Assembly (NCBI GenBank): GCA_015501055.1
Contig: JADNYV010000055.1
Coordinates: 145,881 to 209,880 of the forward strand
Length of the DNA stretch: 64,000 bases
Direction: 5' to 3'
Source of the DNA: Mucidula mucida
Lineage: Eukaryota > Basidiomycota > Agaricomycetes > Agaricales > Physalacriaceae
A program made the position numbers and the translations under genes. Shown piece by piece: positions 30,839 through 55,558 of the stretch. The notes under the pieces are model-generated. The model was not told the DNA's origin and searched no databases. It saw nothing but the letters and a program-made list of their open reading frames with translations. The stretch's first letter is position 1; each line of letters opens with the position of its first letter.

Positions 30839-30929
30839 GTGGTTCCTGACTCATCATTCATATCGAAGCTTAGAGGCTCGAGATTACTACTCGTATAACA
30901 CCGGTATGACTCATATGTATCTTTCAATC

Positions 30930-31120: not shown

Positions 31121-31144
31121 CCAGATATCAAATCGTCAGAGGTG

Positions 31145-33617: not shown

Positions 33618-33622
33618 CTCGG
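33618..33622. repeat. Left 5-bp target-site duplication (CTCGG)
   Basis: Matches CTCGG at 49949-49953, immediately outside the other LTR. Confidence 0.9.
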
Positions 33623-33878
33623 TGTAGCGAATAGTGACATAATCTGGTCACCGCCGGCGTCTATATTGTTTTCTCTCTCTCTCTTACTTACCGTACGCCC
33701 GTATATCATTTTAATCCTTTCGTCGTCCGAGTCGCACCCGACTCGGACTCTCTACTTATATATAAAGCCGCTACAATTGTCCTAGTTCTCTAGTACTCGA
33801 ATCAAGGATTATTCTACACGGTCTCTCAGTTCGACAAGCTCTCGTGTGACGCTACCGAGTTACCTCGCTAACACCACA
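33623..33878 (+). repeat. 5' LTR of the Gypsy element
   Basis: Begins TGTAGCGAATAGTGACATAA and ends GCTAACACCACA. It contains a TATATATAAAG box at about 33760 and a TCTCTCTCTCTC tract. No convincing tRNA primer site could be assigned just downstream. Confidence 0.92.
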
Positions 33879-34076
33879 TATTTTTGACCCACAACAACCC
33901 TCGACAAAAAACCCTCACCCCGTAGCCCTTGCTCCTGGACGCCATCGGTCTGATCAACCGGTATCAGCCTCGACACCGAGCTACAACAAAAACCCTCTGC
34001 TTTTCTTCTAGACCTTCTCAAAAAACTCGATAAACCCCGACAAAACATATCTGCTTAAATTCTCATCTCTACTACA

Positions 34077-37000
34077 ATGTCTGCCCCTCAAAAACAGTAT
34101 AATCTTCGCAGCTCCACCCGGAATGCAGCTTTGGCTGCGATCCCCGTGCCGCGCGTTGTTGATACTGGACATGGTACGTCCGCCGCTGTTGATGTCAATA
34201 CTGATCTTTCGTCAGTTTCAGCTCTGTCCGGACCACCCGAATCCGCTGCCTCGCGTGGCAATCCACAGGTGGGAACAAACACGTCGGGTTTATCCCAGAT
34301 GGACGACGCTGCCGGTGACCCCCAGCGGGCGCCCGCCGTTGATCCTGGAAATACGGGTCTCTCCACGTTTGGTGGAGGATCTGATATCTCCTTCAATATT
34401 GACCAGGGTCCGCCTGGTCTTAGTAGAGACAATAACGCGCCTGGTAGACGTACCAGTCGTGGTTTTACGGACAGTAGTCCCACTGCGAATGAAGAGCTCA
34501 CCAATGAGCAACTTGAAGCTATCATTTTCGCTGAAGAAGAAATGGATGACGATGAACGCGACAGGTACCGTCGCCGTCAAGCCTGGGCCGAGTCGCATCA
34601 AGAACGCGAACTCTCTTAGAGCCCCAAACCTGGCCCATCCCGCGATAAAGGGAAACAAGTCGATTACCGTGAGAAGAACATTCCCGGTATTGATCAGGAA
34701 GACATGAATCCTGAGGCACAAGCTGAAATGCTTCGCATCTACGAGATGCTCAGGAAACAAGATGTTGACATGCAGAGAGCCATCATGGATGGTTTGCTTG
34801 CCAAGACAACTCAGGAAGCTAGTGAAAGTCCTGACCCGGCACCAATGAAGCCAAAGCCAAGTGCGAGACGTCCGGTTACTATTGAGGAAGTAACGGACGA
34901 AGATGACATTGATGACAGCTCGAGTTCTGAATCAGAACCTGTCAACTTACCAAAGCCGGGTCCGAGACGTCCTGAGAATGCAAACAAGAATTCCGCACCG
35001 GCACCCACCAATCCAAAGCCGGGTCTGAAGCGAACTGTTACCATTGAAGAAGTTGTAGACAACAATAATAGTATGGAAGCTTCTCAGAAGGCTAAGAAAC
35101 ACCCTGAACATGAATCTACAGCTCCAGCACCCAGCGAGAGGTCACGTAACAGCAGTCGCATGTCTGCATCAGTCCAACCGGTGATTCAGAACCTAATCAA
35201 CAGCAATATGGCGCGAACACGCACCATAATCAACGGTAATCAGCCAGCTGTTCAATCGACAGCTGGAGGATTCGTTCAGAACGTTCCAAGTACCCAGGTT
35301 CCGACGAACAGCTTCTTAGCTCAGGCTCTTCGTGGTGCCGCCAACTGGAAAGGTGGATCAACGCTTCCTAAGAGACACACATCCAGGAAGAAGTCGCCCA
35401 CCAAGAAGCAGGCATCCAAGAAGAAGCAGGCAGCCAAGAAGAAGCGGTCGTCGCGGAAGGCACAGCCATCCAATAATCCAAGTGATAGTTCAGACTCGAG
35501 CAGCTCAGAGTCATCAACTGAATCCTCTGACGGCTCGGAGTCGAGCTCTGACTCGGATGAGTCTGGCAATGGTCGTGGCCGTGGCAATTATCGCTTTAGT
35601 CGCGCGAAACCTATTGAGCCAAAGTCGTATGACGGAACACCTGATGTACATCTCGTTAGTCGGTTCATTTCTGAATGTGATGTTTACCTTGAGATGTTAA
35701 ATGACAAATCGAGTCGCGACGTGTTCAACGTCTCTCGTTTCCTCGAAGGCAAAGCGAGATGGTTCTATGATAAGATGGTTCATCGAGACTACTGGCAATG
35801 GAAACTCATGTACTTCTTCAACGAGATGTTTAACTATTGCTTCCCGAAGGATTTCCTCACGGATCTACGGGATCAAGTTGATACCTGCCGCCAAGGTAGT
35901 CGAACCGTTCGTGATTACGCATATGAGCTTGATGATCTGTATCACATTCTGAGTGATGAATCGGATCGTGTGCGTGTCCTGAAACTGTTCAAGGGTCTGC
36001 GCATTTCAATCCAGAATGAGTTAAAGCTTCGTGGATACCACGCGGAGACATGTACCTGGGACCAAATCCTAGACATGGCGGAAACAGTTGAACAAGTTCT
36101 GAGCTCGAACGAAGCTACAAGTCGTCGGAATTATAATCACCAACAACGTGGAAATCAACGACATACCAACTTCCAAAGTGAGAATAACAAGTATAACCAG
36201 ATCCCGCGGCCCAAACGTGACTATTCTCCAAAGCCGGCGCGTCAGACTTCTACTGATGAGGGCCTGGAACGATGGGGAAAATGTCCCGTGAACTCGACAC
36301 GTCGTTGGTCGAAGCCGGCTCCACCGAAGAACAACCCTTACAAAGGGAAGAAAGGTGGCAATTCCGCCCAGCCAAACCGTCTCTCGCAGAAGGAGCGTGA
36401 TGAGCACATTGCAGAAGGAAGGTGTTTTGAGTGCCATGAGACTGGACACGTCTCAAGGAACTGTCCAACTCGGAACTCCGCCTCTGGAAGTCGCACAGCG
36501 CCTCCTGGCCTCCGTGCCGCGAGTATTTGGTTTGACGTGACAGAGACTGAACGTCTCAATCGCGAAGCATTGTCTGTGGAAGATCAGACACAGATTCAAC
36601 TTAATCATATGTTGATTAATGATCTAGATGACTTACCAAAGGCATTTGAACCTCAACTGCTTCCCCAGCTGACGGAACAACCCGTTATATGTGACTACTG
36701 GGAGTCTGAGCCTTTCTTCAATATGTTTACTGAGGAGGACATTGAAAAATGGACTCACCGGTGGATTGGGCCACTTCTGAGTGATTTTCACCTTGAAGAT
36801 TTGGAGCGAGGCGGACCTTATCCCGGCGATCCAGATACGCCAGACGATGACTCTCGTTTCAGCCTATACAACATATCAAGTAATGAATATGTGCTGGTTG
36901 ACAGCTATCATGATGAAGACCTACCTGATGGTACTTCCGCGGGTGTCAAGATCCCTGTTGATGCTCTGAAAGGTCAGGAGTTGTCCGTGTGGTACTGGAT

Positions 37001-38043
37001 GTACCGGTTCCGCATGGCTAATCAGCAGTCGCTTCCGTTGCCATACACAATGTTCCCAAAAGCGGGTGGAGATGTTCTTCTTGGCCTGGTCCGTGAGTTC
37101 CTGAACCAATGGGTTCATTCGCGTTCACGCTTCGACGTAGAGTTCTGTGACGTTGAAGGAACTGTGTTCAGCATCACGGACACTAGGCTCCAGATGATGT
37201 TCTATATTAATCGGACGGAGATCTTGAACTCTCACCTATCGCTTGGGAACTGGTGGATGCGACAGATCGAGAAGCTGCGTACTCATTGTAGTCGCGCCGA
37301 ATTCTGGTCCGATCCTGACTTCTACTTCGAGACTGAGGATGACCCTGTCGATCATCTGTATGTCGGCGCGATTGAGAGGAATGCAGGATCTGCACGTGAC
37401 TTTAAACGTTTGGTGCCCCGCCCACTTGTTATTGCAGTCCAGATTGGAGGGCATACTGCTCGTGCCTTGGTGGACTCTGGTTCGCTTGGTGACTTTATGT
37501 CCACTACATTGGCAGATCAGCTTCGTGTTAAGAAGATACAACTGGAGAAACCACTCGCATTACATCTGGCGGTACAGGGATCACGCTCAAAGATTAATCA
37601 TGGCACAAGAGCACTGTTCGAATATCAGGGTATTCGGGAACAACGTTACTTTGATATAATTAACCTGGCGAATTATGACTTGATTCTGGGAACACCTTTC
37701 CTGTTTCAGCACAAGGCGTCGTTCGGAGTCAATAAGTATCACCTGAACATTGGGAGTGAAGTCTCCGTGCCTATAGAAGGTGTTAATGTGAGCCAGATTG
37801 ATGCTCGGATAGCGGAACTTAGCGAAGAACGGCTGGAGGATGTCCGACAGCATCTTCTGGAGTATGCTGACCCGCTGTTTGTCGACGCGGCGAAGACACT
37901 ATTACCGCCGCTCCGAGCTATCAACCATGAGGTTCCTCTCATAGACGAGAACAAGGTCTACTCTTGGCGACCGTCGCGGTGTCCTGAAGCCTTGAAAGCA
38001 CAATGGATTCAGAAGAAGAATGATTATATTGCCACGGGATTCC
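34077..38043 (+). pseudogene. gag: Gypsy gag and aspartic protease, interrupted by an in-frame TAG
   Basis: ATG 34077 opens MSAPQKQYNLRSSTRNAAL; a TAG at 34617-34619 interrupts, and the same frame stays open from 34620 to 38135. After a Ser/Lys-rich linker the capsid-like gag region (KPIEPKSYDGTPDVHLVSRF to WDQILDMAETVEQVL) spans about 35610-36100. The nucleocapsid zinc knuckle CFECHETGHVSRNC is at 36423-36464. The retroviral-type protease motif ALVDSGSLGDFM starts at about 37467. From about 38035 the frame departs from the RT frame, so a deletion/frameshift separates PR from RT. The gag-to-RT spacer (36530-37400) is acidic and unusually long. Confidence 0.88.
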
Positions 38044-38801
38044 CATGCTCTGTATCTACAAGCCGCATCAGCCGAAAGATCAACCAGAACTGCGCTGCGT
38101 TGTGGACTTTCGTGAGCGGAATGCAAATACTGTAAAGATGTCTGCACCCTTACCTGCAATCCCGACGATGCTCTGGCGCGTTGCCGGCCACAAGTACGTC
38201 TCGATGTTCAACCTACAGAGTGGTTATGAGCAGATGCGCACCATTGATGCTCATATACATCGTAACGGGATCACCACACCCGACGGCGTGATTGAGAGCC
38301 TGGTACTGGTCCAAGGTGATACCAATGGTCCGGCGACATGTCAGGCATTGATGAACCACATGTTCTTGCCATATCTCGGCGTGTTCGTCGACGTGTACCT
38401 TGATGATATCGTGGTATACTCCGATACTCTGGAAGATCACATCAAACATTGTAAGATTGTGTTTGACATACTGCATCGGGAGAAATTTTACCTCAGTAAG
38501 AAGAAATGTCAGATAATGCCCAAAGAACTTCACATTCTTGGCCATATCATTGATGGTGCGGGGATCCAAATGGATCCAGCTAAAGTGGATAGTGTCAAGA
38601 CTTGGAAGATTCCGACAAGTAAGGAACTCTTACAGGGTTTCCTTGGTGCAGTCGGGTACCTTGCTGATAACGTTGCGAATGTCCGTATTCCGATGGGAGT
38701 CCTGCATAGTCTCACGTCAAAGGAGGTTCCGTTCCGCTGGAACGAGACTCATCAGCGCACATTTCTTGAAGTTAAAGAGTACGTTGAGGCTTACCGGGTA
38801 A
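38044..38801 (+). pseudogene. pol: Gypsy reverse transcriptase, split from RNase H by a transposon
   Basis: IPMLCIYKPHQPKDQPELRC, VVDFRERNANTVK, the catalytic VDVYLDDIVVYS at about 38390 and the KCQIMPKELHILGHIID thumb region are in frame. The frame ends at VEAYR where transposon A begins (38802). It resumes at 45740 on the minus strand as HHRKPLRYGPNEAT. It is open but lacks its normal start, because the upstream PR frame is shifted. Confidence 0.88.
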
Positions 38802-41800
38802 TGGGGGTGGGCAATCGGGGGGGTGTGCCTGTGCGCTTACTAAGCTGATCGAGAGCGCGAAACATGGCACAGCTAGTGTCAAACAACTTCTTGCTTCATT
38901 TCCACTTCATTTTAAGTCTTGCATCTCGATTTCTTGACTGGATTAGTATGGATTAGTGTTATGTATGTAGGTAATGCTCTAGAAGTAAAAAATGTAGGGA
39001 ATATTCCGAATATGAGTATCTATCAGGCTGATTATAATGCTTGTGGGATAGGTTCTCTCATTTCCACATCGTCGTCGTCGACCTCATCATCCGGGACATT
39101 GGAAGACTCATCTGAATGGGGTAAAGATCCTTCTTTCGCACCACCGCGTGTCTGATACAGCTTACTCGCGTCCACCAGAGCCCTGAGCTTCTCCGGTTTG
39201 TTCTTGTAATCCTTCTTCTTTGACGGCAACGACGACGGGTCCCAGGCCAGATAATGGAGCACCTGGACATTCATCTCAGCCACCGACATCGACATTGAGA
39301 AGGCTGATGGATCCACAATCATTGTGGCACTCTTCATGGCTTCATCATCTCGCGCTGCCCTGTCCGTCTTCTTCTGCTCCTTCTCCTTGGTCTTTGCATC
39401 ATTCTCATTAGCTCGCTCCTTCTGATGAGCAATGTGCGCCTCTCTCCGCTGCCTCTCCTCTCCCAAGCTCTCTTGTTCCCGCTGTGTCTTTTGCAGCCAC
39501 GCATGATCATCGTTCGTGAACATCACATCCATGAAATCCTGGGTGTTGTTCTGCTTGTACGTCGCAATCGCGTTGAACAGGAACAGCGAGAGCCTTGGAT
39601 TTGCCCGCATAGTGACACAATACGAGCCTAGAATGCCCTCGTTTACGTCGTTTGTCGCGGGCATCCATGCTCGGGAGCGTTCATCAACCAATGATTGATC
39701 AATGATGCCACCAGGTGCGTACTCGGATGAGAATCGGATCCAGGTTGTTAATGAGCCCTCCAGGAACTCAACGAAGAGCTCGCGAAGGTGAGGTAGTTCC
39801 TGCTTCATGTCGTGGATGGCGCTCATAACCACAGGATCCCATTCCATACCCTTCAGCACTGCCGTCTTGGGTGATGCATTGTCAGCTAAGACGAGATCTG
39901 GGTTCTTGAACAAGGTCTCCACATGTTCGATGGTTTCCTTGTGAAACGGTCCAAGGTCAAGTGCGTTCATCTCTTCATCTGCTCAAACATGTGTGAGGTA
40001 CGGCCGACAGATAAGCTGAGAATACAGCGACATGACCACAAGCTCCGTCACTGTAGGGATGTCCAACAAAGCACAATGAAGATTTAACTCCATGTTTGTC
40101 CAGCCCGGGCGTGCCTTCGCATCATGGATATGCTTCAAGAATGCGCGATAATTTGGGAGATCGCTAACCAGTTCCGACGCCGCCTCGCCATACGTGCCAA
40201 AGCGATCGTTACTTGTGTCCGGGAAGCGGCGATAGTTCTCGTTGCCGTAGCAGGTGCTGAAGTACATCTGGTGCGTATCTTGCTGCCCCTTCTTGTCATC
40301 CTTGTGGTTGAAGAGCGCACCCGCCAGCGCACAAGTCTTGACACCACCGCGTGTTGAGGCTTCAAGTGCCGTCATCTCCGTCTCGGTGAGTTCCCCATTC
40401 TCTGGTGGCTTTTTCGCAGGATCTAAGATGCGCTGCAGTAACGCGGCATTCTGTTTGTTCGCCAACGTAACCGGTGGTGGCAGGCCGAGCTTCTCGTATG
40501 CCGCCATCATCCTTGTATTCCCTCCCTTGAAGGCGTTCATGTCCTTATGCATGCAACAGCCCACCCAGAAGAACAAGGTCAGCTCTCGCTTCTCTGCTGC
40601 ATCCATCTTTTCAAACTGTTCCAGTCTCAGGCTTCAATACATCCCGTCAAGCGCGGCCAAATCACGAACCGAGCGCTCCTCTGCCGATAACCGATCCCAT
40701 GCTTCCTGTCCTCCTGCGTCCTCGATTTTCTGCTTTTGCCATGCCTCCGAAATGCGGAGAACTTCTTGCGCGTTCATCTCCAGTGCCGCTGTCACTCCAA
40801 GATCAACGATGGCGGAATCTGTCTTCTTTCCGTCAAGATCGCTGCAGATGGCCTTTTCGTTGTTGGCGTGATCACCGTGGATCCCCTTCAGCCATTTATA
40901 GAACAGTCTGAGGTCAGCCTTCATGCCTGTTCGCTGTCCGAGTGGACTAGTCCTTGCACGAGCCATATGGTGGGTGACAGTTTGCTCCCAAGACATAACT
41001 GAGCCTTTGCTAGAATGATCCAATGTCGAATGGACTCCCACAAGTCGACTCTTTGGCTTAGACGTAGCTGTCGGCACCGTCTTGCCCGCCTTATAGTCAG
41101 GTACGCGCATGTTGATATGCTTCGCCTCGTAATTGATGTTTCGGTTAGACGTGCTATCCTGACTGATTGTTACATCTTGTGGGCAGTTAGATAGTACATT
41201 CTATTAAGCAAGCGGTGCGTACTCTCTGATTTCTCCATTTCATAGGCCATCTGAACTTCAGCGGCAATGCCTGCTTCATGTATAGCTCGGCGCACCGTGC
41301 GACGACTCATGACACGGTCAACGCGGATACCAAGGCCTCCCGCGATAGTCTTTAGCAGCTTCCCAACGTTAGCCTGTGATACGCCACCGCATACCATCAG
41401 GCGCGCGAGTTTCCGTGCTTCAGGGGTGTAGACTCCTTGCTGGCGGAGACGTACAACGCCAGTGTTACGCGCGCGTGATCGTTGAACTGCGCCTCCGAGT
41501 GCTAGTAGTTTCAACTTCTGGCGAGTGCTCAGCTGAGCAAGAGCCTTTCGCGCCCTTTCAGTGTCTCGGAGTCTCGCTCTTGTAGCCTGGAGCTTGCTGT
41601 CGAGATCTGCAGCATGCTGTTGTGCCTCTTGGAGACGTTTCTCGTAGCGCCGGATGGAGACGGAGGCAGCCGACTGGATATCCTTGATCTGCTGACGGAG
41701 AAGCTGGTTCTCTTCAACAAGCTTCGTGTTTTTGAGCAGGACTCGGGTGAGCTTTTTCTTTGTATTGCGAAAGCCCTTCTTGAATTTTTCCACCTGCACC

Positions 41801-42498
41801 AAGGTCTGATCATACTTCCGCTTTGACACTTTGGGAGACTCGGGTGGGACAGGGATATTTTCCTTTCCGCATTTCGGGGTCGATTCCTTGCCATTTCGCT
41901 TGGCTTGCACGGCTGCAAACTGTGCTTTCTGAGCGCTAGAACGAGAAGGTGTTCTTTTCTCCTTTTGCAGGCCGAGAAAGCTTGTAGTACGCGACTTAGA
42001 GTCCCGTTTTGTATCCATGATCTGTATTCAACATTTTGGTCAATTATTCCACTGTGAAACCTGCCAAACTGACCCGCAACGTTGTTTTTTGGTCAGATCG
42101 TGCCACAAGTAACGCAAACTGTCACACATTCGTCACACAAAATGTTACTCCATCGTCGACGACAGCTCGCGCTTCGACGCGTCAACTGACCAGCTCAAAA
42201 AATTGGGGATGTATTTCAGGCATATAATGAAGGATTTTGGCCGGGGGAATTTCCCAAATTTGAAGTTTAAGCATGTATACTTATCGGGTTCACTGCCTTC
42301 CACTCAAAATTTTCGAAATCTGCCCGGCCAAATGACTTAGATATTATATCATACTACATCAGAATCTACAGAACCATCAAAATTGAGGTGAGGAAGCCAG
42401 GAGGGAGGTGTGCCATCGTGGTGGTGGAGGTAGCAGAGAGGGCCCAGGTAAGCCAAATAGTGGCAAGCTCGGGAAGGTCGCAGCATTGCCCACCCCCA
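38802..42498 (-). mobile_element. DNA transposon copy A, 3,697 bp
   Basis: Ends in the inverted repeat TGGGGGTGGGCAAT / ATTGCCCACCCCCA. The transposase reads on the minus strand. It is the inverted twin of copy B (45747-49443), of identical length, differing mainly by C-to-T/G-to-A changes. One of these turns CGA into TGA at 39983-39985 and truncates ORF3. Superfamily not assigned: the protein belongs to a large uncharacterised agaricomycete family. Confidence 0.9.
39032..42018 (-). pseudogene. Transposase of copy A, three open blocks
   Basis: ORF1 42018-41170 (282 aa) is basic with a long coiled coil and a helix-turn-helix-like segment near VCGGVSQANVGKLLKTIAGG. ORF2 41110-40634 and ORF3 40606-39983 / 39970-39032 follow. 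Same breaks as in copy B plus an extra TGA at 39983-39985. Confidence 0.85.
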
Positions 42499-43367
42499 GA
42501 ATTGGATATAGTCGCGTCCTTGGTACGGGGTGCCGTGATGGTGTTGGATGGCTGGATGCACAACTTGGGGAATGGGAGACGACTGCGCTGGTGGATCCTT
42601 GGAACACGCCCTCCGTTCATGCGGCTAGCCAATTGCGCGTTGTCGATTTCCTGCTTCCTTTCCTTCTGCAACTTCCTTCCCATCGAAATCCTCATCTTAA
42701 ACTTCTGCTCCCTTTCCTCCTTTTCCAACAACAACTGCGTCACCATCTTCCTCAAGCACTCCAACTCCTCCTGGTCAACGCAAGCCTGGGTTACTTTGGC
42801 GGGTAGTGGTGGAAGAAGGTCGTCAATGGTGACAGGACCGTTGTTGGGGACAATGACGGTTCTGTCGCGTTTGATGGTGGAGAGTTGTTTGAGGATGGTG
42901 GGGTCGTCGTTATACTGGACGCGGAAGAAGCGACTGCCGTGAGGACGAGCATACGTGGCCGGCCAGCTACCTCCTCTAGCCACGTCGCGGGCAATGACTT
43001 CTTCGTCGGCGATACCCTGGAGCTGGGCGCGGACCCAGTATTCATACACGCCCGAGTTGCCACGTACCAAGAGTCCATGAGGACCAAGGCACATAATATG
43101 GGCGTGTCCGTTGTATCTGGCATCGACTGGGGCCATGTTGCGACGAGTGTAGGTGGTGTGGTGACGAGGTTTGGGTGGTAGAGAGGCGATGTGGATAGAG
43201 AGGTCGTCGAGTAGATCGGTGATGAAGGCGGGGATGGATTGTTTGACTGATGGAGGTGCTGTGCTCTGGGATTTCGACTTCCCAGAACCATGACCTTTAT
43301 AGCACCGGGATGAATGGTGAGCGGGCGGACATCTTCCGCATTTCCGTAGTGTGCTAACCGTCTCCAT
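42499..43367 (-). CDS. Gypsy accessory ORF3, 5' part (inverted segment)
   Basis: From the ATG at 43367 (METVSTLRKCGRCP) the frame runs to the junction at 42499. It carries a zinc-knuckle-like cluster CGRCPPAHHSSRC near its start, a YEYWVRAQLQGIADEEVI segment, and a heptad-rich coiled coil (ELECLRKMVTQLLLEKEERE). The same frame is open further upstream to about 43556, including QDYLEVQGVKHAKDL, which normally ends Gypsy chromodomain polyproteins, so ORF3 may be expressed as a frameshift extension of pol. The 3' part lies at 49451-49661. No recognised family; a second nucleic-acid-binding, Gag-like role is inference. Confidence 0.7.
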
Positions 43368-43452
43368 AGCTTGCAGGTCTACTTGTAAATCGCCTGTGTC
43401 AATACTATTGATCTTGTTTTTCAAATCCTTTGCGTGTTTAACTCCTTGGACT

Positions 43453-45746
43453 TCAAGATAATCCTGAAATGAATTTCTCGACGTCTCGGTAGGGAAGCCA
43501 GGTACGATCGCCTGCAGCCCATTTGACTTCAAATTTCGCACTCGTTCCTCGTCCACGATGATCCAGTATACTTTTCACTTGCCATTTGGGTTCTTTTTCT
43601 GTTGAGAACCCAAGCTGATCGTGTTTTCGTCCAGGGAACAACCTGTCATCATTTGGAACATGAACTCGAAGCCTCGACGCGTGGAAAACAGGATGAATTC
43701 CTCGTCGCTTCAAATCAGGCGGAAGCTCGACCCGGTAAGAGTTATTTCCAAAGTCTTCGAGAATTTCATATGGACCAATGTATTTAGGTATCAGCTTGCG
43801 AGCGAGTCCCTTTGGAAACTTGATGTTCTCCGCGGATAGGTAGACTAGGTCACTTTTTTCAAACGGAGCGGGGCGCCGTCTACGATTAGCGTCGCAAATT
43901 TGCTTCACGCGGGCAGCAAGGATCACGTCATGCGCCTCAATAATTGCAGACTTGACTTGCAGAGCAAACTTTGTGACACCGGGGTATGTAGAATCTGTCG
44001 GTGAGTTCCAAATCATACTTCGAGGCATACGACCTGTATTGATGAAGAACAGCGCGTAGCCCGTGCTATCAGAACGAGCGGTATTGATTGCAAATTCAAT
44101 ACTCGGTAACTTCTGTACCCAATCTTTCAGGTCGGGCGAAATACAGTTTCGTATCATCTGCGTGACTGTTCGGTTCGCTCGTTCAGTCGATCCATCAGTT
44201 TGGGGATGGTGAGCACTTGACATCTTGAGATTGACGCCGAGGAGCTTATAGAGATGTTTCCAGAAGTTACTGGTGAACAAGACATCACGATCGGACATGA
44301 TGTGGCGCGGTAAGCCGTGGTGTTTGTATATCTCCGCAAATATCAACTCAGCAATCTGGGCAGCTGTATAGTCCGTTCGACTAGGTATCAAGTGCACCAT
44401 TCCAGACATCAAATCAATGACAACCGTGAGCGAATTGAAAATGCCATCTCGGTTCTTGGACTCAGGCAGCGGACCGACAAAGTCAATGTCAATTGACTCC
44501 CATGGATACGAGGGTACTTCAAGCGAGTTGAGTAGCCCGTATGGTCGCTGATTGTTAGGCTTACTCCGTTTACAGGTAGCGCAACTATCACAGAACGCGT
44601 GTACATCATGATTTACGGTTTTCCACCATACATGATTATGCAGGTACGCGGTAGTTTTACTCGGTCCTAGATGAGCTAACAATGAGTGCGCTTCAGAGAT
44701 GATAATCTCGCGTAGATTACGCCCATCGATGACGACTTTCTCAGGAATGCAAAGGAGATCTCGGCCTTGCTCCTGCAGATAGAGGAGTCCATCTCGAACA
44801 AGAAAGTTCTTAAACTCCTTTGGACTCAAAATGATTTTGCTGAGCAAGGTATCTTTCGAATAGTTCAATTTCATGATCTCTAACAGATCTATTCCTAGGA
44901 GTTTCTCGTTCACAATGCCAACGAGTGAACTCTTCGGCGCAGATTCTGTTTTGACTGGACGTGCTTCCGGATTAGGCAAGTCTTTTTCCGGATTAGGAAG
45001 TGGCGAGTCGGTAAGTGAATTGTGTACACTCCCGCCCTCCATTTGTTCCTCTGGCGCTTTAGGGCCTTTGAGAACGAATTTCCCAACCATTCGCTTGGCA
45101 AACGCCTCAGACTCAGTCAGCGGTTTTGGCGCGCAAGCCGTCTTTGCGGACGGTTCCCACTGTGCCTTCGCACCGGTTTTGCTGTGTGTGGCCATTGTGT
45201 TGGCTTCAACGCCCACGTAAACTGGCATAGTGATGGCTAACAACGCCATATCAGACACAGGATGGTCCTTGTCGTGACGTGCATACTCTGATGGTGCGCA
45301 TTCCATCCCCGGTGCATCGTTCGAGTATATCTGCGACAGGGCATCACTCAAGACGTTTTCAGCACCGGGAACGTAGACGACCTCGAAGTCAAAGTCGGAC
45401 AAGGACTCCATCCAACGGGCCTGGCGTCCCGACAGGTTCTTCTGCTTTAGAAGGTGAATTAACGATTTATGATCTGTATACCACTTAAAGTGACAACCTT
45501 GCAGGACATCGCGATACCGCTTCATGGTTTCCACACCAGCGAACATTTCCAGCTTGTGAACCAGATAGTTCTGCTGGGCCGGATTCAACTTGGCAGAATA
45601 GAATGTGGCAATCACGGCGGTCTTCCAGTCATTGCCTTGGCTAACGACGCCTGAAATTCCAGTGCTGCATGCGTCGGTTACGATGTTGATTGTCGCCTCA
45701 TTGGGACCATAACGTAGAGGTTTACGATGGTGATTACGGTAACTTG
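43453..45746 (-). CDS. pol: Gypsy RNase H, integrase and chromodomain (inverted segment)
   Basis: Continuous minus-strand frame of about 760 codons. RNase H: IVTDACSTGISG, MFAGVETM, YTDHKSLIHLL, LSDALSQIYS. Integrase: HSLLAHLGPSKTTAYLHNHV and CDSCATCK zinc-binding, catalytic DDE in IDIDFVGPLPES, MSDRDVLFTSNFWKH and HHPQTDGSTERANR. C-terminal chromodomain: WQVKSILDHRGRG to GDRTWLPYRDVEKF. The frame ends at 43453; the usual final DYLEVQGVK is in the next frame. The start is the junction with copy B (45747); the true N-terminal partner is the RT at 38044-38801. Confidence 0.93.
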
Positions 45747-46226
45747 TGGGGGTGGGCAATGCTGCAACCTTCCCGAGCTTGCCACTATTTGGCTTACCTG
45801 GGCCCTCTCTGCTACCTCCACCACCACGATGGCACACCTCCCTCCTGGCTTCCTCACCTCAATTTTGATGGTTCTGTAGATTCTGATGTAGTATGATATA
45901 ATATCTAAGTCATTTGGCCGCGCAGATTTCGAAAATTTTGAGTGGAAGGCAGTGAACCCGATAAGTATACATGCTTAAACTTCAAATTTGGGAAATTCCC
46001 CCGGCCAAAATCCTTCATTATATGCCTGAAATACATTCCCAATTTTTTGAGCTGGTCAGTTGACGCGTCGAAGCGCGAGCTGTCGTCGACGATGGAGTAA
46101 CATTTTGTGTGACGAATGTGTGACAGTTTGCGTTACTTGTGGCACGATCTGACCGAAAAACAACGTTGCGGGTCAGTTTGGCAGGTTTCACAGTGGAATA
46201 ATTGACCAAAATGTTGAATACAGATC

Positions 46227-47075
46227 ATGGATACAAAACGGGACTCTAAGTCGCGTACTACAAGCTTTCTCGGCCTGCAAAAGGAGAAAAGAACACCTTC
46301 TTGTTCTAGCGCTCAGAAAGCACAGTTTGCAGCCGTGCAAGCCAAGCGAAATGGCAAGGAATCGACCCCGAAATGCGGAAAGGAAAATATCCCTGTCCCA
46401 CCCGAGTCTCCCAAAGTGTCAAAGCGGAAGTATGATCAGACCTTGGTGCAGGTGGAAAAATTCAAGAAGGGCTTTCGCAATACAAAGAAAAAGCTCACCC
46501 GAGTCCTGCTCAAAAACACGAAGCTTGTTGAAGAGAACCAGCTTCTCCGTCAGCAGATCAAGGATATCCAGTCGGCTGCCTCCGTCTCCATCCGGCGCTA
46601 CGAGAAACGTCTCCAAGAGGCACAACAGCATGCTGCAGATCTCGACAGCAAGCTCCAGGCTACAAGAGCGAGACTCCGAGACACTGAAAGGGCGCGAAAG
46701 GCTCTTGCTCAGCTGAGCACTCGCCAGAAGTTGAAACTACTAGCACTCGGAGGCGCAGTTCAACGATCACGCGCGCGTAACACTGGCGTTGTACGTCTCC
46801 GCCAGCAAGGAGTCTACACCCCTGAAGCACGGAAACTCGCGCGCCTGATGGTATGCGGTGGCGTATCACAGGCTAACGTTGGGAAGCTGCTAAAGACTAT
46901 CGCGGGAGGCCTTGGTATCCGCGTTGACCGTGTCATGAGTCGTCGCACGGTGCGCCGAGCTATACATGAAGCAGGCATTGCCGCTGAAGTTCAGATGGCC
47001 TATGAAATGGAGAAATCAGAGAGTACGCACCGCTTGCTTAATAGAATGTACTATCTAACTGCCCACAAGATGTAA
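46227..47075 (+). CDS. Transposon copy B ORF1: coiled-coil and DNA-binding part
   Basis: 282 aa from MDTKRDSKSRTTSFLG. A Lys/Arg-rich N-terminus is followed by a coiled coil of about 100 residues (KLVEENQLLRQQIKDI, QEAQQHAADLDSKLQATRAR) and a conserved VCGGVSQANVGKLLKTIAG segment that may be a helix-turn-helix. After the stop at 47073-47075 the same protein appears to continue one base out of phase as DVTISQDSTSNRNINYEAKH, the expected first catalytic Asp block. Copy A is identical except Cys24 here is Arg there. Confidence 0.8.
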   Translation: MDTKRDSKSRTTSFLGLQKEKRTPSCSSAQKAQFAAVQAKRNGKESTPKCGKENIPVPPESPKVSKRKYDQTLVQVEKFKKGFRNTKKKLTRVLLKNTKLVEENQLLRQQIKDIQSAASVSIRRYEKRLQEAQQHAADLDSKLQATRARLRDTERARKALAQLSTRQKLKLLALGGAVQRSRARNTGVVRLRQQGVYTPEARKLARLMVCGGVSQANVGKLLKTIAGGLGIRVDRVMSRRTVRRAIHEAGIAAEVQMAYEMEKSESTHRLLNRMYYLTAHKM

Positions 47076-47134
47076 CAATCAGTCAGGATAGCACGTCTAA
47101 CCGAAACATCAATTACGAGGCGAAGCATATCAAC

Positions 47135-49213
47135 ATGCGCGTACCTGACTATAAGGCGGGCAAGACGGTGCCGACAGCTACGTCTAAGCCAAAGAGTCGA
47201 CTTGTGGGAGTCCATTCGACATTGGATCATTCTAGCAAAGGCTCAGTTATGTCTTGGGAGCAAACTGTCACCCACCATATGGCTCGTGCAAGGACTAGTC
47301 CACTTGGACAGCGAACAGGCATGAAGGCTGACCTCAGACTGTTCTATAAATGGCTGAAGGGGATCCACGGTGATCACGCCAACAACGAAAAGGCCATCTG
47401 CAGCGATCTTGACGGAAAGAAGACAGATTCCGCCATCGTTGATCTTGGAGTGACAGCGGCACTGGAGATGAACGCGCAAGAAGTTCTCCGCATTTCGGAG
47501 GCATGGCAAAAGCAGAAAATCGAGGACGCAGGAGGACAGGAAGCATGGGATCGGTTATCGGCAGAGGAGCGCTCGGTTCGTGATTTGGCCGCGCTTGACG
47601 GGATGTATTGAAGCCTGAGACTGGAACAGTTTGAAAAGATGGATGCAGCAGAGAAGCGAGAGCTGACCTTGTTCTTCTGGGTGGGCTGTTGCATGCATAA
47701 GGACATGAACGCCTTCAAGGGAGGGAATACAAGGATGATGGCGGCATACGAGAAGCTCGGCCTGCCACCACCGGTTACGTTGGCGAACAAACAGAATGCC
47801 GCGTTACTGCAGCGCATCTTAGATCCTGCGAAAAAGCCACCAGAGAATGGGGAACTCACCGAGACGGAGATGACGGCACTTGAAGCCTCAACACGCGGTG
47901 GTGTCAAGACTTGTGCGCTGGCGGGTGCGCTCTTCAACCACAAGGATGACAAGAAGGGGCAGCAAGATACGCACCAGATGTACTTCAGCACCTGCTACGG
48001 CAACGAGAACTATCGCCGCTTCCCGGACACAAGTAACGATCGCTTTGGCACGTATGGCGAGGCGGCGTCGGAACTGGTTAGCGATCTCCCAAATTATCGC
48101 GCATTCTTGAAGCATATCCATGATGCGAAGGCACGCCCGGGCTGGACAAACATGGAGTTAAATCTTCATTGTGCTTTGTTGGACATCCCTACAGTGACGG
48201 AGCTTGTGGTCATGTCGCTGTATTCTCAGCTTATCTGTCGGCCGTACCTCACACATGTTCGAGCAGATGAAGAGATGAACGCACTTGACCTTGGACCGTT
48301 TCACAAGGAAACCATCGAACATGTGGAGACCTTGTTCAAGAACCCAGATCTCGTCTTAGCTGACAATGCATCACCCAAGACGGCAGTGCTGAAGGGTATG
48401 GAATGGGATCCTGTGGTTATGAGCGCCATCCACGACATGAAGCAGGAACTACCTCACCTTCGCGAGCTCTTCGTTGAGTTCCTGGAGGGCTCATTAACAA
48501 CCTGGATCCGATTCTCATCCGAGTACGCACCTGGTGGCATCATTGATCAATCATTGGTTGATGAACGCTCCCGAGCATGGATGCCCGCGACAAACAACGT
48601 AAACGAGGGCATTCTAGGCTCGTATCGTGTCACTATGCGGGCAAATCCAAGGCTCTCGCTGTTCCTGTTCAACGCGATTGCGACGTACAAGCAGAACAAC
48701 ACCCAGGATTTCATGGATGTGATGTTCACGAACGATGATCATGCGTGGCTGCAAAAGACACAGCGGGAACAAGAGAGCTTGGGAGAGGAGAGGCAGCGGA
48801 GAGAGGCGCACATTGCTCATCAGAAGGAGCGAGCTGATGAGAATGATGCAAAGACCAAGGAGAAGGAGCAGAAGAAGACGGACAGGGCAGCGCGAGATGA
48901 TGAAGCCATGAAGAGTGCCACAATGATTGTGGATCCATCAGCCTTCTCAATGTCGATGTCGGTGGCTGAGATGAATGTCCAGGTGCTCCATTATCTGGCC
49001 TGGGACCCGTCGTCGTTGCCGTCAAAGAAGAAGGATTACAAGAACAAACCGGAGAAGCTCAGGGCTCTGGTGGACGCGAGTAAGCTGTATCAGACACGCG
49101 GTGGTGCGAAAGAAGGATCTTTACCCCATTCAGATGAGTCTTCCAATGTCCCGGATGATGAGGTCGACGACGACGATGTGGAAATGAGAGAACCTATCCC
49201 ACAAGCATTATAA
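47135..49213 (+). CDS. Transposon copy B ORF2-ORF3: putative catalytic part, with one in-frame TGA
   Basis: The open frame continues from MRVPDYKAGKTVP through GVHSTLDHSSKGSVMSWEQ and KGIHGDHANNEKAI to a TGA at 47609-47611, then reopens in the same frame (MDAAEKRELTLFFWVGCCMHKDMNAFKGGN from 47639) to 49213, 524 aa. Conserved-looking blocks: GALFNHKDDKKGQQDT, FPDTSNDRFGTYGEAASEL, ENALDLGP-like NALDLGPFHKET, EYAPGGIIDQ, MPATNNVNEG. Asp, His and Glu in these blocks are candidates for a DDE-type centre (inference). The tail is a Lys/Glu coiled coil and an acidic end. I recognise the pattern as a very common uncharacterised agaricomycete protein. Confidence 0.8.
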
Positions 49214-49450
49214 TCAGCCTGATAGATACTCATATTCGGAATATTCCCTACATTTTTTACTTCTAGAGCATTACCTACATACATAACACTAATCCATACT
49301 AATCCAGTCAAGAAATCGAGATGCAAGACTTAAAATGAAGTGGAAATGAAGCAAGAAGTTGTTTGACACTAGCTGTGCCATGTTTCGCGCTCTCGATCAG
49401 CTTAGTAAGCGCACAGGCACACCCCCCCGATTGCCCACCCCCACCAATTC

Positions 49451-49661
49451 CAACCAAGTCGCGTCTGCCTCCGGATCGGGCAGCACTACCGGTCCCGCGG
49501 TCCCTGTCGTCGGCACGATTACTCTTCAGGGTGGTCTGGACCCTGCTGCCCCTGCGTTCGTTCCTCTTCCGCAAGTCACCGAGGATGCAGAGATGGATGG
49601 AGATGGAGACGACGAGGACAAGTTGGAAAACTACAACGAGGAGATGGTGGGACGTGAGTAA
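49451..49661 (+). CDS. Gypsy accessory ORF3, 3' part
   Basis: NQVASASGSGSTTGPAVPVVG to a very acidic end (EDAEMDGDGDDEDKLENYNEEMVGRE-stop). The phase matches the 5' part at 42499 when the inverted segment is restored. Confidence 0.75.
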
Positions 49662-49690
49662 GGAACTTCGGATCGAAATCCCGGAGGGCG

Positions 49691-49948
49691 TGTGGAGCGA
49701 ATAGTGACATAATCTGGTCACCGCCGGCGTCTATATTGTTTTCTCTCTCTCTCTTACTTACCGTACGCCCGTATATCATTTTAATCCTTTCGTCGTCCGA
49801 GTCGCACCCGACTCGGACTCTCTACTTATATATAAAGCCGCTACAATTGTCCTAGTTCTCTAGTACTCGAATCGAGGATTATTCTACACGGTCTCTCAGT
49901 TCGACAAGCTCTCGTGTGACGCTACCGAGTCACCTCGCTAACGCCACA
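49691..49948 (+). repeat. 3' LTR of the Gypsy element
   Basis: Begins TGTGGAGCGAATAGTGACAT and ends CTAACGCCACA. Purine-rich CCGGAGGGCG directly precedes it and is a weak polypurine-tract candidate. Differences from the 5' LTR include G/A at CGAATC-G-AGG, C/T at GAGT-C-ACC and G/A at AAC-G-CCACA. Confidence 0.92.
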
Positions 49949-49953
49949 CTCGG
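49949..49953. repeat. Right 5-bp target-site duplication (CTCGG)
   Basis: Identical to 33618-33622. Confidence 0.9.
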
Positions 49954-50224
49954 ATAGCCTTTGGGTCTATGTATAAGTGTGGCACCCGCGAGATCAGCGC
50001 GTGTAGGCTCTTCAATGAGTCATCCACATTCCCGTGCCTTGTCAACACAGCACTAGTGACTGAATATACATGCTCATTCAATTACACGTCTCAACAGCTC
50101 ACCACGAGGACTTTACAGCATCAAGTTCCCTCCCAAATCAAGCTTCGGCTTCTCTTACTTCAGCGCGGCGCCCAATGCTCATATATAACCTTCTCAAGCG
50201 TACCACTATCCACTCCAACGCACC
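49954..50224 (+). promoter_or_regulatory. Promoter region of the 50.2-kb membrane-protein gene
   Basis: A CATATATAA box lies at about 50190, roughly 35 bp before the ATG. The left part was separated from its original upstream DNA by the Gypsy insertion. Confidence 0.5.
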
Positions 50225-50743
50225 ATGTCCACCGAGTTAGAGCCCACCGCTCCCCGCGCCCAAGCATCGACACCCCGCGTCATCGCCGAGCTCATCGCAA
50301 CGTGGGCTATAAGCGTTCCCACGCTCACAGTCCTCTACGCCGCCTTCACCCTCCTCGGCTACGCCCTGCTCTCCATTGCCACCATCCCCCAGGGCCAATC
50401 TCTCTCCGTCTTTTACGCCGCCCTCATCGGCAGCGGCATCCTCCTTGCCCCCATCTGCCTCCTCTCACTCCTTGTCGTGTTTGATCTGGTCGTGTTTGAC
50501 CTGGACCTCCACTCGTTTTTCTCCGACCTATTCAAATTTGGCATGCATCATCTCCGGAGCCTCTTCGTCATACTCATAATTTTGGGCGGCAGCGCGTTGG
50601 GGTGGAAGATCTTGCAAGTGTCGGGCGCCTCGCCAGGAGTAGATCGCGGTCATTTGGTGGCGGCCAGTGCTCTGGGAGGATACATATTTCGGATGATCCT
50701 CGAGCTTCTGAAGGTCTTCGTTCCGTATGATGAGAGCCAATGA
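50225..50743 (+). CDS. Small four-helix membrane protein (family member, intact)
   Basis: 172 aa from MSTELEPTAPRAQ, no intron. Hydrophobic segments: WAISVPTLTVLYAAFTLLGYALLSIATI, VFYAALIGSGILLAPICLL, LFVILIILGGSALGWKIL and GHLVAASALGGYIFRMILELL. Shorter loop than its paralogues at 32132 and 58788. Function unknown. Confidence 0.75.
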   Translation: MSTELEPTAPRAQASTPRVIAELIATWAISVPTLTVLYAAFTLLGYALLSIATIPQGQSLSVFYAALIGSGILLAPICLLSLLVVFDLVVFDLDLHSFFSDLFKFGMHHLRSLFVILIILGGSALGWKILQVSGASPGVDRGHLVAASALGGYIFRMILELLKVFVPYDESQ

Positions 50744-50867
50744 CGTACAGTATATTCCCAATCCATGTCAGTACATACGCGTTGTCCATGAATGAATTTT
50801 AAGTTATCGTCTTCAATCGTGCAGGATTCCTCATTCGTCGTCTGCGCGCGGCCCCGTTTCTAACTGA

Positions 50868-51180
50868 TCAAGGGCGTGTCGTCCACACCGCGAAGTAGGC
50901 AAGTTTGAGGCCGGCCAAGCCAGTTACGTTCAGCCCCATACTCGGCAAATAGCTCTTCCTCGAGGTGATATGGCGCACGGCGCGTCTCCAAAACCGCTCT
51001 TCTGTAGACAAGAACGAAGTGAAACCAGTGCATGTAGGCGTCAATATTGATGACGGGTGCAAGGTGTTGATAGGCGCCACCATGGTAGTCTTCGAGTTGT
51101 TTTTCGCGGCACCCTACCATACGTGCAAATCTCCCGAGGTCGACAACCCCAGGTTGAAAACGAGGCAAGATATCATCCGC
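50868..51180 (-). pseudogene. Relic of DAO-type FAD oxidoreductase
   Basis: The minus strand encodes PGVVD, YQHLAPVINIDAYMHWFHFV, RAVLETRR and EEELFAEYGAE, then in another frame NVTGLAGLKLAYFAV. This matches the middle of the DAO copies at 54.1 and 61.9 kb (AYQHLAPVIDTDAYMHWLRFV). Only this internal part remains. Confidence 0.75.
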
Positions 51181-51981
51181 TCGGATCGAAGGAGTAGAGT
51201 TTCAAGAGGGACTATGAGCCCGCAGACACGCTCAACTCTGAATTGCAGTGAACTGGAGTCGAGAGAGGTCAAGTTTTCACGATTATGGACGATATCGGGG
51301 AGCCTATAGCTCATGTATTGCCAATTGACAAAGACCATTCCCCAAGTCGGATAGCCGGTCGAGGCGGAATGACACTCGTGTCGTGTACATCGCCAGAGCA
51401 AGTAAGGACTCGGCCCTCGGGGTTGAATCTTGATGCAAAAGTTCAGATCCCTGGAGTTGATTTGCATCGTAGATCAGATCGCCTCGGAATGCGAGCCCAC
51501 ACAAGGACAAAGAGGAAAAGGGGGCTGGTGGTGATCCGTTTGTAGCCCTATGTGGCGGCATGTCAGTAGGTTTGCGTAGTGAGTAACATTTCCTTACCTC
51601 TTATACCCTCACTTGAGGGTAGACCAAGGAGAACACGAGAGAAGTATCGCATTTTGAGCGTCTCCTTTTACCACGTTAACTGTCAAAGCTTGTAAATTGA
51701 TATAGGATGATGGTTGAGAGCAAGTCGTTGTACCGCGATACATGTGACCCTGCCTGCCTCTAAAAGCGAGTCATTTGTATGGCGTAGGCGAATATCAAAC
51801 ATCTTCATCTTCAAAGCGATGGTCTTCAATGCACTATCCAAATGGTGCTGTGTATTGTAGACGTAGCCATCAGTAGAACAGAAGTCTCGCGAGTGTACGT
51901 ACTATACGTTTCTTGACTAGTTGATATCTGACTGGATACTTGGGAACTTTGAGATTACGAGTCGTATAACACGGGTATCAC
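51181..51981. other. Intergenic, no supported gene
   Basis: Probably decayed DNA of the DAO relic and the 3' flank of the F-box gene. Minus-strand short frames (51114-51561) show no family resemblance. Confidence 0.45.
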
Positions 51982-53101
51982 TCAGATCTTTCGTCGACCT
52001 GCTTCAACCGTCCTAATATTCACCGACTTTAGCTTCGGAAGCTGCATCAAGGTCATCTCCGCGTCCGTCCAAGCAGCCACTGAATCCTGCATCTCCCGCG
52101 CATCCGCATACTGGAGATCAATCGCCAGATACTCTAAGCTGACGGCTGCCGCCTGGGTCAGGCGGCTAAGCCACCATCTTGTCCAAGACGAATCGAAACC
52201 GAGAAGAGACAAGTAGAGGGACCTGATGTTATAGAAGGGAAAGACGGGCATTTCCGCCTCCAAACGTTGCTGCGCTGTACAACCAGTGAGTACATCATTT
52301 GGAGAACTTGGCACGACGCTTACTGTCTGGATGGCTGATGTCACCCATAGGACGTTTGAACGTCAGGGTGACGAGATTCGGCAGTTGGGGGATGACTCTT
52401 GAGATGATGAAGAGGTCCCGGGCGGAATAGCTCTCTATGATGAGACTACGCAAGTGACTCGACCATTCGCTGGCAGCGCTTTTGAACAAGGAAACACCCA
52501 GGGGCGACGATATCGTGCCCGTAGAAATAGAGATTTCGGTAAGAAGGATGTTCCCAGCGTCGAGTGAGGGAGACGCCATGCCCATCGCATGCACGTTATG
52601 AAGACGAAGCGACGAGAGCGAAGGGAAATAGGAAAGAAGTGTGAATAGAGACTGGGGTGTTGGGAGGAAAATTGTCCTCAGACTGAGCGTACAGACTGTG
52701 GGGGACGCGATGATGGGAAGAAGACTACCTATTGTGGTAAACGCCTCTAGTCCGAGCATTTGCATCAGCTCGATGGCATCCACATTGGGAACCGCATGGA
52801 TAAGGCGGCCCAAGGAGTTGTCTTGGTGAACAAATAGGCGCTTGCGAGGAGACGAAGAGGCTGAAAAATCGCCAGCAAAAATGCGAAGTCGGCGAACGTA
52901 TGTCAAAATGTGGGGCGACATTTCAAGAAGCGGTATATAGCTCGAAGGAGAGTTTGTGTTTGGCGACAACACCAACTCGTGGAATAGGAGCGCCTGCGAG
53001 CGTGCGCGGAGACAGTGGGATGTACACGACAGTGCCATAAGGGATGGGTGGTCGTCGAACAGCCAGTCGGCAATTTCATCGAATAGTTCTTGGGGGAACA
53101 T
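51982..53101 (-). CDS. F-box/LRR-like protein, two exons
   Basis: Exons 53101-52324 and 52274-51982 encode 356 aa. The start MFPQELFDEIADWLFDD is chosen because both paralogues begin at this point; a longer open frame to 53218 exists. F-box core: LMALSCTSHCLRARSQALLF. LRR-like segments: VCTLSLRTIFL, LSSLRLHNVHAMG, LRSLIIESYSARDLF, LVTLTFKRPMGDI, IRSLYLSLLGFDSSWTRWW. The second exon is 293 bp, the same size as in the 59754-60869 paralogue. It is convergent with the membrane-protein gene and divergent from the DAO copy. Likely an SCF substrate adaptor; target unknown. Confidence 0.85.
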
Positions 53102-54140
53102 GACGGCCGAACTCTGGAAGCTGGAGGATAAGTATGCGCCTTGGGAGGGCTTTAAAGACGCGGAAGTCAATTGAGAGTCCTTGTGTTTGAATGATACTTG
53201 TATGCTAGTAGTATCCATGGACTGTTCATTGTATGTTGGTCCGCGCCACAGGAAATCTTACCTTATTGAATGCAAGGAAGCGGAGATTGAAGGTTGACGG
53301 ATTTCCGAGGATGATCTAGGCATGAAGAGGCGCGAGGACGTGCAGGGATGCAGATCCGCTAGAGACCATGGAGGGAAGAGGTCAACCCGATTCCGACGGA
53401 TGTAGTAGCCGGTATCTCCGTGTTCGAGTTGCTACCCGACTCTCATCATGTCTGCCCGTCTTGCCATACAGAGCGTACTTCTCTTGCATCCGTCGCCGTG
53501 GACTTGAAATTGGACGTTTGAAATCATGTTCTCTTCAACTAGTAAGGCACAGTGGGCGCTGCTAAATGTGGTGTGATTTTCTTGATGAAAAACTTCTCTA
53601 ACTCACCGGTTAGAAACAACAAGCAAGGCTTAATCTGCCACGGATCTCTGCTCGGACGTATCTCATCGTCTTGTCCTCGGTAAGATCTTTCATCAATTCC
53701 GAGATTGTCAACTCAGATTCCGCTCAGCTCGCACTCCGGCAACTTGATAAAACTCATAGTGTCGCATATCCGTCGACTGCTCGTTCGCTGTGCAAGAACT
53801 CTGCACGTTAATCGATTCCTATGCGCGACTTTCATCTGCAGATGCAAAATACCTGCGAACTGCTGAACGAGCAGCTTACTACTCTTTACACCGACTCACG
53901 CCATAACCCCCCATCCGAGGCGATCGTTCACATTCGTCATCACCCGGGGTCTGCACGTCCTCCGCGCTGAACCCTACATGGACCTGCAGCTCGTCAGGGT
54001 GCCGCGGATGAGCACGACGTGATCGTTCTCCGAGCACTTTGCAAAGTCGCGGTCGCGGGATTGGTATTTAACATGGATCTGTTCAGCATGTTGGACCATC
54101 AGCATCAGTCCCACTCAGACTCAGCTTCTCTAACTCAACA
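53102..54140. other. 1-kb divergent spacer between F-box and DAO genes
   Basis: Shared with 60870-61855. No intact gene. A TCTGCACGTCCTCCGCGCTGAACCCTAC-containing stretch near 53950 is strongly conserved between the copies. Read on the minus strand it encodes QVLVGFSAEDVQTPGDD in the second copy, so it may be an old coding remnant or a conserved promoter block. Confidence 0.5.
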
Positions 54141-55558
54141 ATGTCTATCGCCTCATCTCCCGACTTCTTCTTGACTCGCCTCGGCGACGAGCTTGTCCTT
54201 CAAGAAGGCCAGCCTCCCCAAGCAGACCCGAATGTTCCGAGGAAGCGTATTTTGATCGTTGGTGGTGGTGTCACCGGCTTTACTGTAGGCGTTCATTGGT
54301 GTCTCTTGCCTCCAAGCTTCTAATAATGCCTTTAGACTGCCTGGGCCTTCTTAGATGCCGGCTACGATGTGACTGTCATTGCCGAACGATGGGCCGACCC
54401 CAAGAACCGCATCACTTCGCAAATTGCTGGCGCTTTGTGGGAATTCCCACCAGCAGTTTGTGGAAAACACACCGATGTGACTGGCTTTTCCGATACATTG
54501 GTCGCATTCTTACCTTTCGTTACAGGTCATCTCTCTTCACAATTCTAAGCGATGGTGCATGACTGCATACCGCGTCTTCGACAAGCTTCAAGCGATCATG
54601 CCCCGAAGCGATTACCTTGACCACGGTGTCCAGATGCGCATGGCCAACTTCTTCTTCGACCAAAAGATGGAGAACATGCCTGACCGGGGACAGCTTGACA
54701 AGTATGAAGAAATTGTTGCTCAGAACGATGTAAGAATGGATCCTTTCATCGATCAGCACGGACCTAACGCGTCTCCAGATCAAAGGAGTCCGACGGGATG
54801 CCAACATCGTCACTGAACACAAAGTCAATCAAAAGACTGGCGTTGTCGACGCCTATCAACATCTCGCCCCAGTCATCGACACCGACGCTTACATGCATTG
54901 GCTACGATTCGTTCTTGTCTGCAAAGGCGCAGTCATGGAGACGCGCCGCGTCAACGGCGATCTACTTGACCAAGAGGAAACACTGCCTGCGGAGTACGGC
55001 GCTGACGCGATCGTCAACGCTACTGGCCTGGCCGTTGCTGGGGACGCATCCGTCTACCCACTTCGAGGCGCTCTTATCCGAGTCGTCAACGATGGCAGCA
55101 AGTTCCCCAAAGTCACCGAGGCGCTTGCTGTCACTCACGATGACAAGACGAAGACATTGTATTCATCGTTCCCCCGCAATGACAACAACGCTCATCCTTG
55201 GTGGTAAGTCAGATCTACATATTTCCTTGGGCATGTTGTTCATTCGTATACCTTCTATAGGCTTGGCCCAACCACATAAATACGAACTCGACCTCACGCT
55301 GGACAGTCCGGAAATCATACGCATGCAACACCTTTGCACCTGGCCTTGAGCATGCCGAGTATGACCCCGACGCACCTTTGGTGCAAGGGTTCCCGCCCAT
55401 TCCGGGGCTCAAATGTCCGCGTTGAGCGTGAGTTACGCCCACGGTCAGATGGGTCGATGAGCCGCATCGTCCATTCTTACGGACAAGGTGGTGCGGCGGT
55501 TTCTCCCTTGTGCTATCGACGTGTTGGAGTTGTCGTTGATTTAGGAGCTAGACGATGA
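54141..55558 (+). pseudogene. DAO-family FAD oxidoreductase (D-amino-acid oxidase-like), copy 1, decayed
   Basis: Start MSIASSPDFFLTRLGDEL with the FAD motif ILIVGGGVTGFT, an intron of about 50 bp, then AWAFLDAGYDVTVIAERWADP and ITSQIAGALWEFPPAVCG, a second intron, YRVFDKLQ, GVQMRMANFFFD, AYQHLAPVIDTDAYMHWL, YGADAIVNATGLA, AGDASVYPLRGALIRVVNDGS. Breaks: a CCCCC run at about 55174 shifts the frame before the expected LILGG; residues are missing after ATGLA; a frame change follows IRM near 55325, another near 55400 before RGSNVRVEREL, and deletions occur in the final GQGG-FTLSFG region. The DAO family oxidises D-amino acids, giving H2O2 and keto acids; this copy is unlikely to be active. Confidence 0.85.

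Follow-up and report, generated by a model that had tools for sequence, protein, structure and literature searches.

In a Mucidula mucida assembly, two inverted copies of a hAT-like transposon enclose the reversed half of a Gypsy retrotransposon, with one clean and one scarred insertion site

The window analysed here, a whole stretch of 64,000 nucleotides of the mushroom Mucidula mucida (contig JADNYV010000055.1, positions 145,881 to 209,880), contains a Gypsy retrotransposon that is interrupted at two sites by copies, A and B, of one DNA transposon. Half of this Gypsy element lies reversed between the two transposon copies, which are inverted relative to each other (Table 1). The results come from one assembly of 59.9 Mb in 1,047 contigs, in which the segment appears in one orientation. 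The inverted-repeat arms were found at 38802-42501 and 45744-49443, 3,242 nt apart, and both the repeat and the reversed half of the Gypsy element lay where an earlier sequence-only reading of this DNA had placed them. The Pfam domains fell on opposite strands, as that reading had also proposed: reverse transcriptase (RT) lay on the plus strand, ahead of A, and the matches between A and B (RNase H, integrase zinc-binding and SH3_Tf2-1) were all on the minus strand. The chromodomain that it had listed among them was left without Pfam support, the scan of the window giving no Chromo match in the Gypsy element at E 0.01.

Other Gypsy copies of the genome showed how both sites read when they are not interrupted. 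Site 1, between the RT and RNase H coding regions, was uninterrupted in the five copies covering it (contigs C336, C357, C151, C938 and C354), which read GAGGCTTACCGTAATCACC, and site 2, in the third open reading frame (ORF3), in all four (L029, L030, L031 and L032), which read ATATCCAATTCCAACC; because some may be allelic to others, they are not five independent witnesses. They support the proposal that the coding regions run through across the junctions once the segment is turned back. The reversed segment itself had three near-full-length matches elsewhere, at 98% identity (98.2-98.3% to L029, L030 and L031). Restoring the orientation had been described as joining the RT codons directly to RNase H and as letting ORF3 run on without loss; the restored sequence was clean at site 2 but not at site 1, where extra bases were present at both junctions.

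The Gypsy element spans 33623-49948, has 256-bp long terminal repeats (LTRs) with a divergence of 1.6% and is bordered on either side by CTCGG. Two paralogous empty sites (L058 and L059) carried a single CTCGG and no Gypsy element when the sequences were compared, confirming the target duplication that had been proposed. With its LTRs, its short target duplication and the order protease, RT, RNase H and integrase, it is a Ty3/Gypsy LTR retrotransposon, the domain order being taken from uninterrupted copies and the gag and protease assignments from Pfam matches below the curated cut-offs. The gag-protease and RT ORFs overlap at 38045-38135 in different frames, which could reflect decay or a programmed frameshift. 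Two further copies of the same element were interrupted internally, at C354:5967-7911 (about 1.9 kb) and C938:126079-127393 (about 1.3 kb).

Table 1. Features of the Gypsy element, the two transposon copies and their junctions (positions in the window; a dot marks features given without strand)
Feature	Position	Strand	Basis or remark
CTCGG, left Gypsy target duplication	33618..33622	.	Single CTCGG in L058, L059
Gypsy 5' LTR	33623..33878	+	253/257 aligned bases identical to 3' LTR
Gypsy gag/aspartyl protease ORF, original orientation	34704..38135	+	Pfam Retrotrans_gag, zf-CCHC, Asp_protease_2, all below curated cut-offs
Gypsy RT, original orientation, up to breakpoint AL	38045..38801	+	PF00078, E 4e-25
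Junction AL: CTTACCG (site-1 target) then GGTAA (38797-38801), odd palindrome TTACC-G-GGTAA	38790..38801	+	Compared with 5 uninterrupted copies
Transposon copy A, 3,697 bp	38802..42498	-	Transposase frame with a private TGA and a TGA common to B
Junction AR: CCAATTC on the minus strand, 7-bp site-2 duplication	42499..42505	-	Copy comparison
Gypsy segment in reverse (RNase H, integrase and start of ORF3), 3,248 bp	42499..45746	-	Pfam; other genome copies
Junction BL: CAAG-TTACCG on the minus strand; initial C of the target now G, AA palindromic to TT	45737..45746	-	Copy comparison
Transposon copy B, 3,697 bp	45747..49443	+	Sequence comparison
B transposase gene	46227..49213	+	ORFs 46227-47075, 47135-47611, 47639-49213
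Junction BR: CCAATTC, 7-bp site-2 duplication	49444..49450	+	Copy comparison
Remainder of Gypsy ORF3 region, original orientation	49444..49692	+	99.6% to L029, L030, L031 over 239 bases
Gypsy 3' LTR	49693..49948	+	LTR comparison
CTCGG, right Gypsy target duplication	49949..49953	.	Empty-site comparison

Copies A and B have the same length and end in 14-bp terminal inverted repeats (TGGGGGTGGGCAAT). A chance repeat was ruled out, the terminal 14-mer occurring exactly four times in the window, whereas 0.01 occurrences were expected from shuffled sequence even with up to one mismatch allowed. The two copies, which had been called identical, differ at 10 of 3,697 positions (0.27%; 99.7% alike). 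These differences showed no clustering that would mark gene conversion (longest gap 1,003 bp, P 0.44), and when the five of them covered by deletion derivatives of the transposon were polarised, B was derived at four and A at one. The last two ORFs of the B transposase form one frame cut by the TGA at 47609-47611; A has a stop at the same codon and one extra TGA, and no full-length transposase is predicted from either. Because the stop codon is common to A and B, help in trans would have been needed when the second copy arose, unless conversion later spread the stop. If both the LTRs and the A/B pair are taken as clocks, the pair would be several times younger than the Gypsy insertion, since A and B differ by 0.27% and the LTRs by 1.6%; conversion between A and B could give a falsely young look.

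Searches of the 59.9 Mb with exact matches to each element end found five elements, namely A, B and three deletion derivatives, and no third full-length copy was found by these searches or by the DNA search, whose counts are lower bounds. Both full-length copies found in the genome thus sit inside one Gypsy element. The deletion derivatives (L033 and L034/L035), two of which (on C548 and C84) have the same flanks, were bordered by 7-bp target duplications, and each 7-mer occurred once in L063 and L066, empty sites of nearly identical sequence. The duplication was likewise 7 bp in a related family on C606, whose ends read TGGTGGTGGGCA. One derivative (L033, on C338) was missing from C906, a contig 99% identical (L063), and the family may for this reason be polymorphic by presence.

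The transposase had 466 homologous proteins at E 0.001, and those named to species among the best 120 were from genera that we take, from general knowledge, to be mushroom-type fungi. A structure model of one homologue (P0021), built with an alignment of 44 homologues chosen from the best 120 of the 466, matched the Hermes transposase above everything else and had, as modelled, the fold of an RNase H-like DDE transposase with a Hermes-type helical insertion. In that alignment D257, C458 and H461 were invariant (44/44) and D353 and E764 were present in 42; the fold suggests that D257, D353 and E764 are catalytic. Motif matching to the homologues polarised two more of the A/B differences: B carries N in place of a D beside the likely catalytic E (D in 42/44 homologues), and A carries C in place of R at another site (R in 41/44). 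None of the 44 homologues matched a hAT Pfam family at E 0.01, nor did the transposon ORFs of the window, and the Pfam matches of homologues were to unrelated names, all weak (E > 0.001). KDZ or any other named Pfam family was ruled out for the window ORFs, which had no match at E 0.01. Site 2, the related family and the two empty sites all gave a target duplication of 7 bp, rather than the 8 bp typical of hAT elements. Since no hAT domain was matched, we call the transposase hAT-like on the strength of the modelled fold, and do not file it as hAT; hAT families with 7-bp duplications have been described (PMC12730594). It would represent a hAT-like transposase family without a Pfam name that is common among the mushroom genomes listed.

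The two insertion sites differed in their junctions, the left and right ones of each copy being called AL, AR, BL and BR. At site 2 a perfect CCAATTC adjoined each of the two copies (at AR and BR), exchanged as an inversion would leave it. At site 1 the left flank read CTTACCG-GGTAA-element and the right one element-CAA-G-TTACCG, with TTACCG alone common to both and with filler bases at 38797-38801 (GGTAA) and 45743-45746 (CTTG). If the original duplication was CTTACCG, each flank forms an odd palindrome (TTACC-G-GGTAA on the left, AA-G-TT on the right) centred on the base adjacent to the transposon. At BL the terminal C has given way to G, the complementary change described for hairpin repair of Ac/Ds (PMC5873905); one base of the filler (C) remains unexplained by a hairpin. 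Random filler would fit the hairpin rule with P 0.003 on the left (5 nt) and 0.048 on the right (3 nt), both probabilities being post hoc and from one site. The geometry fits that of hAT hairpin-repair scars, although the transposon is still present. Re-insertion into an older site-1 footprint was ruled out, the 7-mers adjacent to the element, CGGGTAA and CAAGTTA, being a mismatch.

In the history that we favour, the Gypsy element inserted at CTCGG, as the empty sites indicate, and the hAT-like transposon then came to lie at site 2 (CCAATTC) and another copy at site 1 (TTACCG in both flanks), as shown by the other Gypsy copies. The second copy would have derived from the first by a short hop, because no other full-length copy was found. 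Transposase would later have freed the element from both flanks of site 1, the flanks would have formed and then reopened hairpins, and end joining would have resealed a transposon end to each flank, leaving the odd palindromes. Crossing-over within the 3.7-kb inverted repeat would finally have reversed the segment, exchanging the flanks losslessly, and we infer that A and B reached their 10 differences afterwards by mutation or through partial homogenisation. We give a probability of about one half to homologous recombination between the two inverted copies as the event that flipped the 3.2 kb between them. That the transposon was excised from site 1 with hairpins on both flanks and was then resealed by end joining into its own half-processed site, possibly the other way round, and that this produced the inverted pair behind the Gypsy reversal, is a more tentative proposal, possible but on balance doubtful. 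If it were true, the element would sit in its own footprint, and an abortive transposition, not a second clean insertion, would have set up the inversion. Among the open-access papers listed by searches aimed at a retained or resealed element, none had the phrases 'abortive' or 'aborted transposition', but a precedent may exist among them, one being on excision from an atypical site (PMC1978519).

Several observations weigh against this history. The centre base at AL is an unchanged G, where C would be predicted by a simple hairpin model; of the 4-nt right filler CAAG only the AAG part passes the hairpin rule, which the filler as a whole fails; and the site-1 target TTACCGTAA comes close to being a palindrome in its own right. 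No footprint left by excision of the family was seen elsewhere, its two empty sites having a plain, pre-insertion appearance. The scar requires an additional event, the orientation comes from one assembly, and no third full-length copy was found by which A and B could be shown to be chimeric, the proof used for Galileo.

An unlikely but serious rival is a one-step transposition with hybrid ends between sister chromatids, in which a single element joined a 3' end from one sister and a 5' end from its counterpart to a site 3.2 kb away, giving the second copy and the inversion at once. It would produce the same duplications and would explain why, with just two full-length copies found in the 59.9 Mb, both are here. 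With site 2 as donor the old duplication would be kept perfect and only the new junctions AL and BL, which are a compatible 3'/5' end pair, would be irregular, as observed. Its strand transfer should, however, have given the new site a clean 7-bp duplication, and site 1 is scarred on both sides; the copies should also begin identical, whereas they now differ at the 10 positions, possibly from later change. Ordinary short hops are moreover expected to be commoner than hybrid-end transposition. We prefer recombination because a short hop and crossing-over need ordinary events, whereas a new hybrid-end insertion should leave that clean duplication. The outcome of hybrid-end transposition is described as strikingly similar to that of recombination in the account of Galileo (PMC2775673), and alternative transpositions are reported to produce inversions in maize (PMC8225341). 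The order of nesting and the inversion bounded by inverted copies with an exchanged site-2 duplication, both proposed by the sequence-only reading, stand; its sequence of independent insertions followed by recombination is not established, because a hybrid-end event gives the same duplication pattern and both full copies lie in one Gypsy element.

It is improbable that the orientation was mistaken in assembly, or that both orientations were collapsed into one, the true or commoner order being an intact Gypsy with two nested transposons. A segment between 3.7-kb repeats that are 99.7% alike is easily misoriented, but the 64-kb window is free of N, A and B were kept apart despite having only 10 differences, and no other contig was found with either full copy. 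Two independent insertions followed by recombination, with the odd site-1 flanks due to an imprecise first insertion instead of excision and resealing, appear very improbable: the filler may be non-templated or copied bases, and TTACCGGGTAA can also be read as the site-1 target plus GG, but the other insertions examined (L033, L034/L035, site 2 and the C606 relative) have clean 7-bp duplications, and at site 1 the palindromes are centred on the transposon-adjacent base on both sides.

In the surroundings of the locus, a 744-bp foldback element with TA on either side was found at 32676-33419; the empty site L058 has a single TA there, and the foldback element has many matches genome-wide, on both strands. 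The other empty site, L059 (C58:89980-90560), holds a small insertion with inverted ends starting CTGTAGTGTTTCGACCG, which L058 does not have. The flanks 27000-33440 and 49950-56000 belong to a locally repeated region that occurs many times on C58, C849, C875, C422, C572 and C842, with long matches at about 75-99% identity. The window also encodes a host-like protein whose best match besides itself, at 80% identity, is a protein of Hymenopellis radicata. Two other stretches, C606:9000-15008 and C117:5431-11500, were 99.6% alike over 6 kb, a likeness which may mean that both haplotypes of a dikaryon are present in the assembly.

The locus records successive layers of mobile DNA in a mushroom that can be dated: an LTR element and its empty site, a young DNA transposon whose 7-bp duplications were checked against empty sites, and an inversion of the DNA between two of its copies. 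How inversions between neighbouring transposons begin is a question that the pattern of duplications cannot decide by itself, and on which the contrast between a clean and a scarred site bears. Inversions of this kind are already known; what is new is a scar at a site that still has its element. In the Galileo inversions of Drosophila buzzatii, recombination and hybrid-end models were separated by the chimerism of the copies (PMC2775673). As described there, inverted transposon copies flank the inversion, as here, and 7-bp duplications are exchanged, as here at site 2, with the same two rival models; the Galileo copies, however, were proven chimeric and both duplications were clean, Galileo belongs to the P superfamily whereas the transposase here is hAT-like, and the segment reversed here is one half of a different transposon. 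Mushrooms do undergo related events, since in Marasmius oreades protoclone S1B, a regenerated line, one of two neighbouring MarorhAT-10 copies about 2.5 kb apart is reported as inverted (PMC9674265). According to the same source those copies were head-to-tail and the middle was lost, whereas here it was retained and reversed, and the insertions from which MarorhAT-10 was defined have DUF659 and a hAT dimerisation region, in contrast to the present family with no Pfam match. In maize, the ends of neighbouring or sister Ac/Ds elements cause inversions through alternative transposition; the junctions in that work were examined for 8-bp duplications of the Ac type (PMC8225341), whereas here 7 bp are clean at one site and the other is scarred. 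The hAT7 elements of rust fungi, likened here by description only, are also hAT elements of basidiomycetes with 7-bp duplications (PMC12730594).
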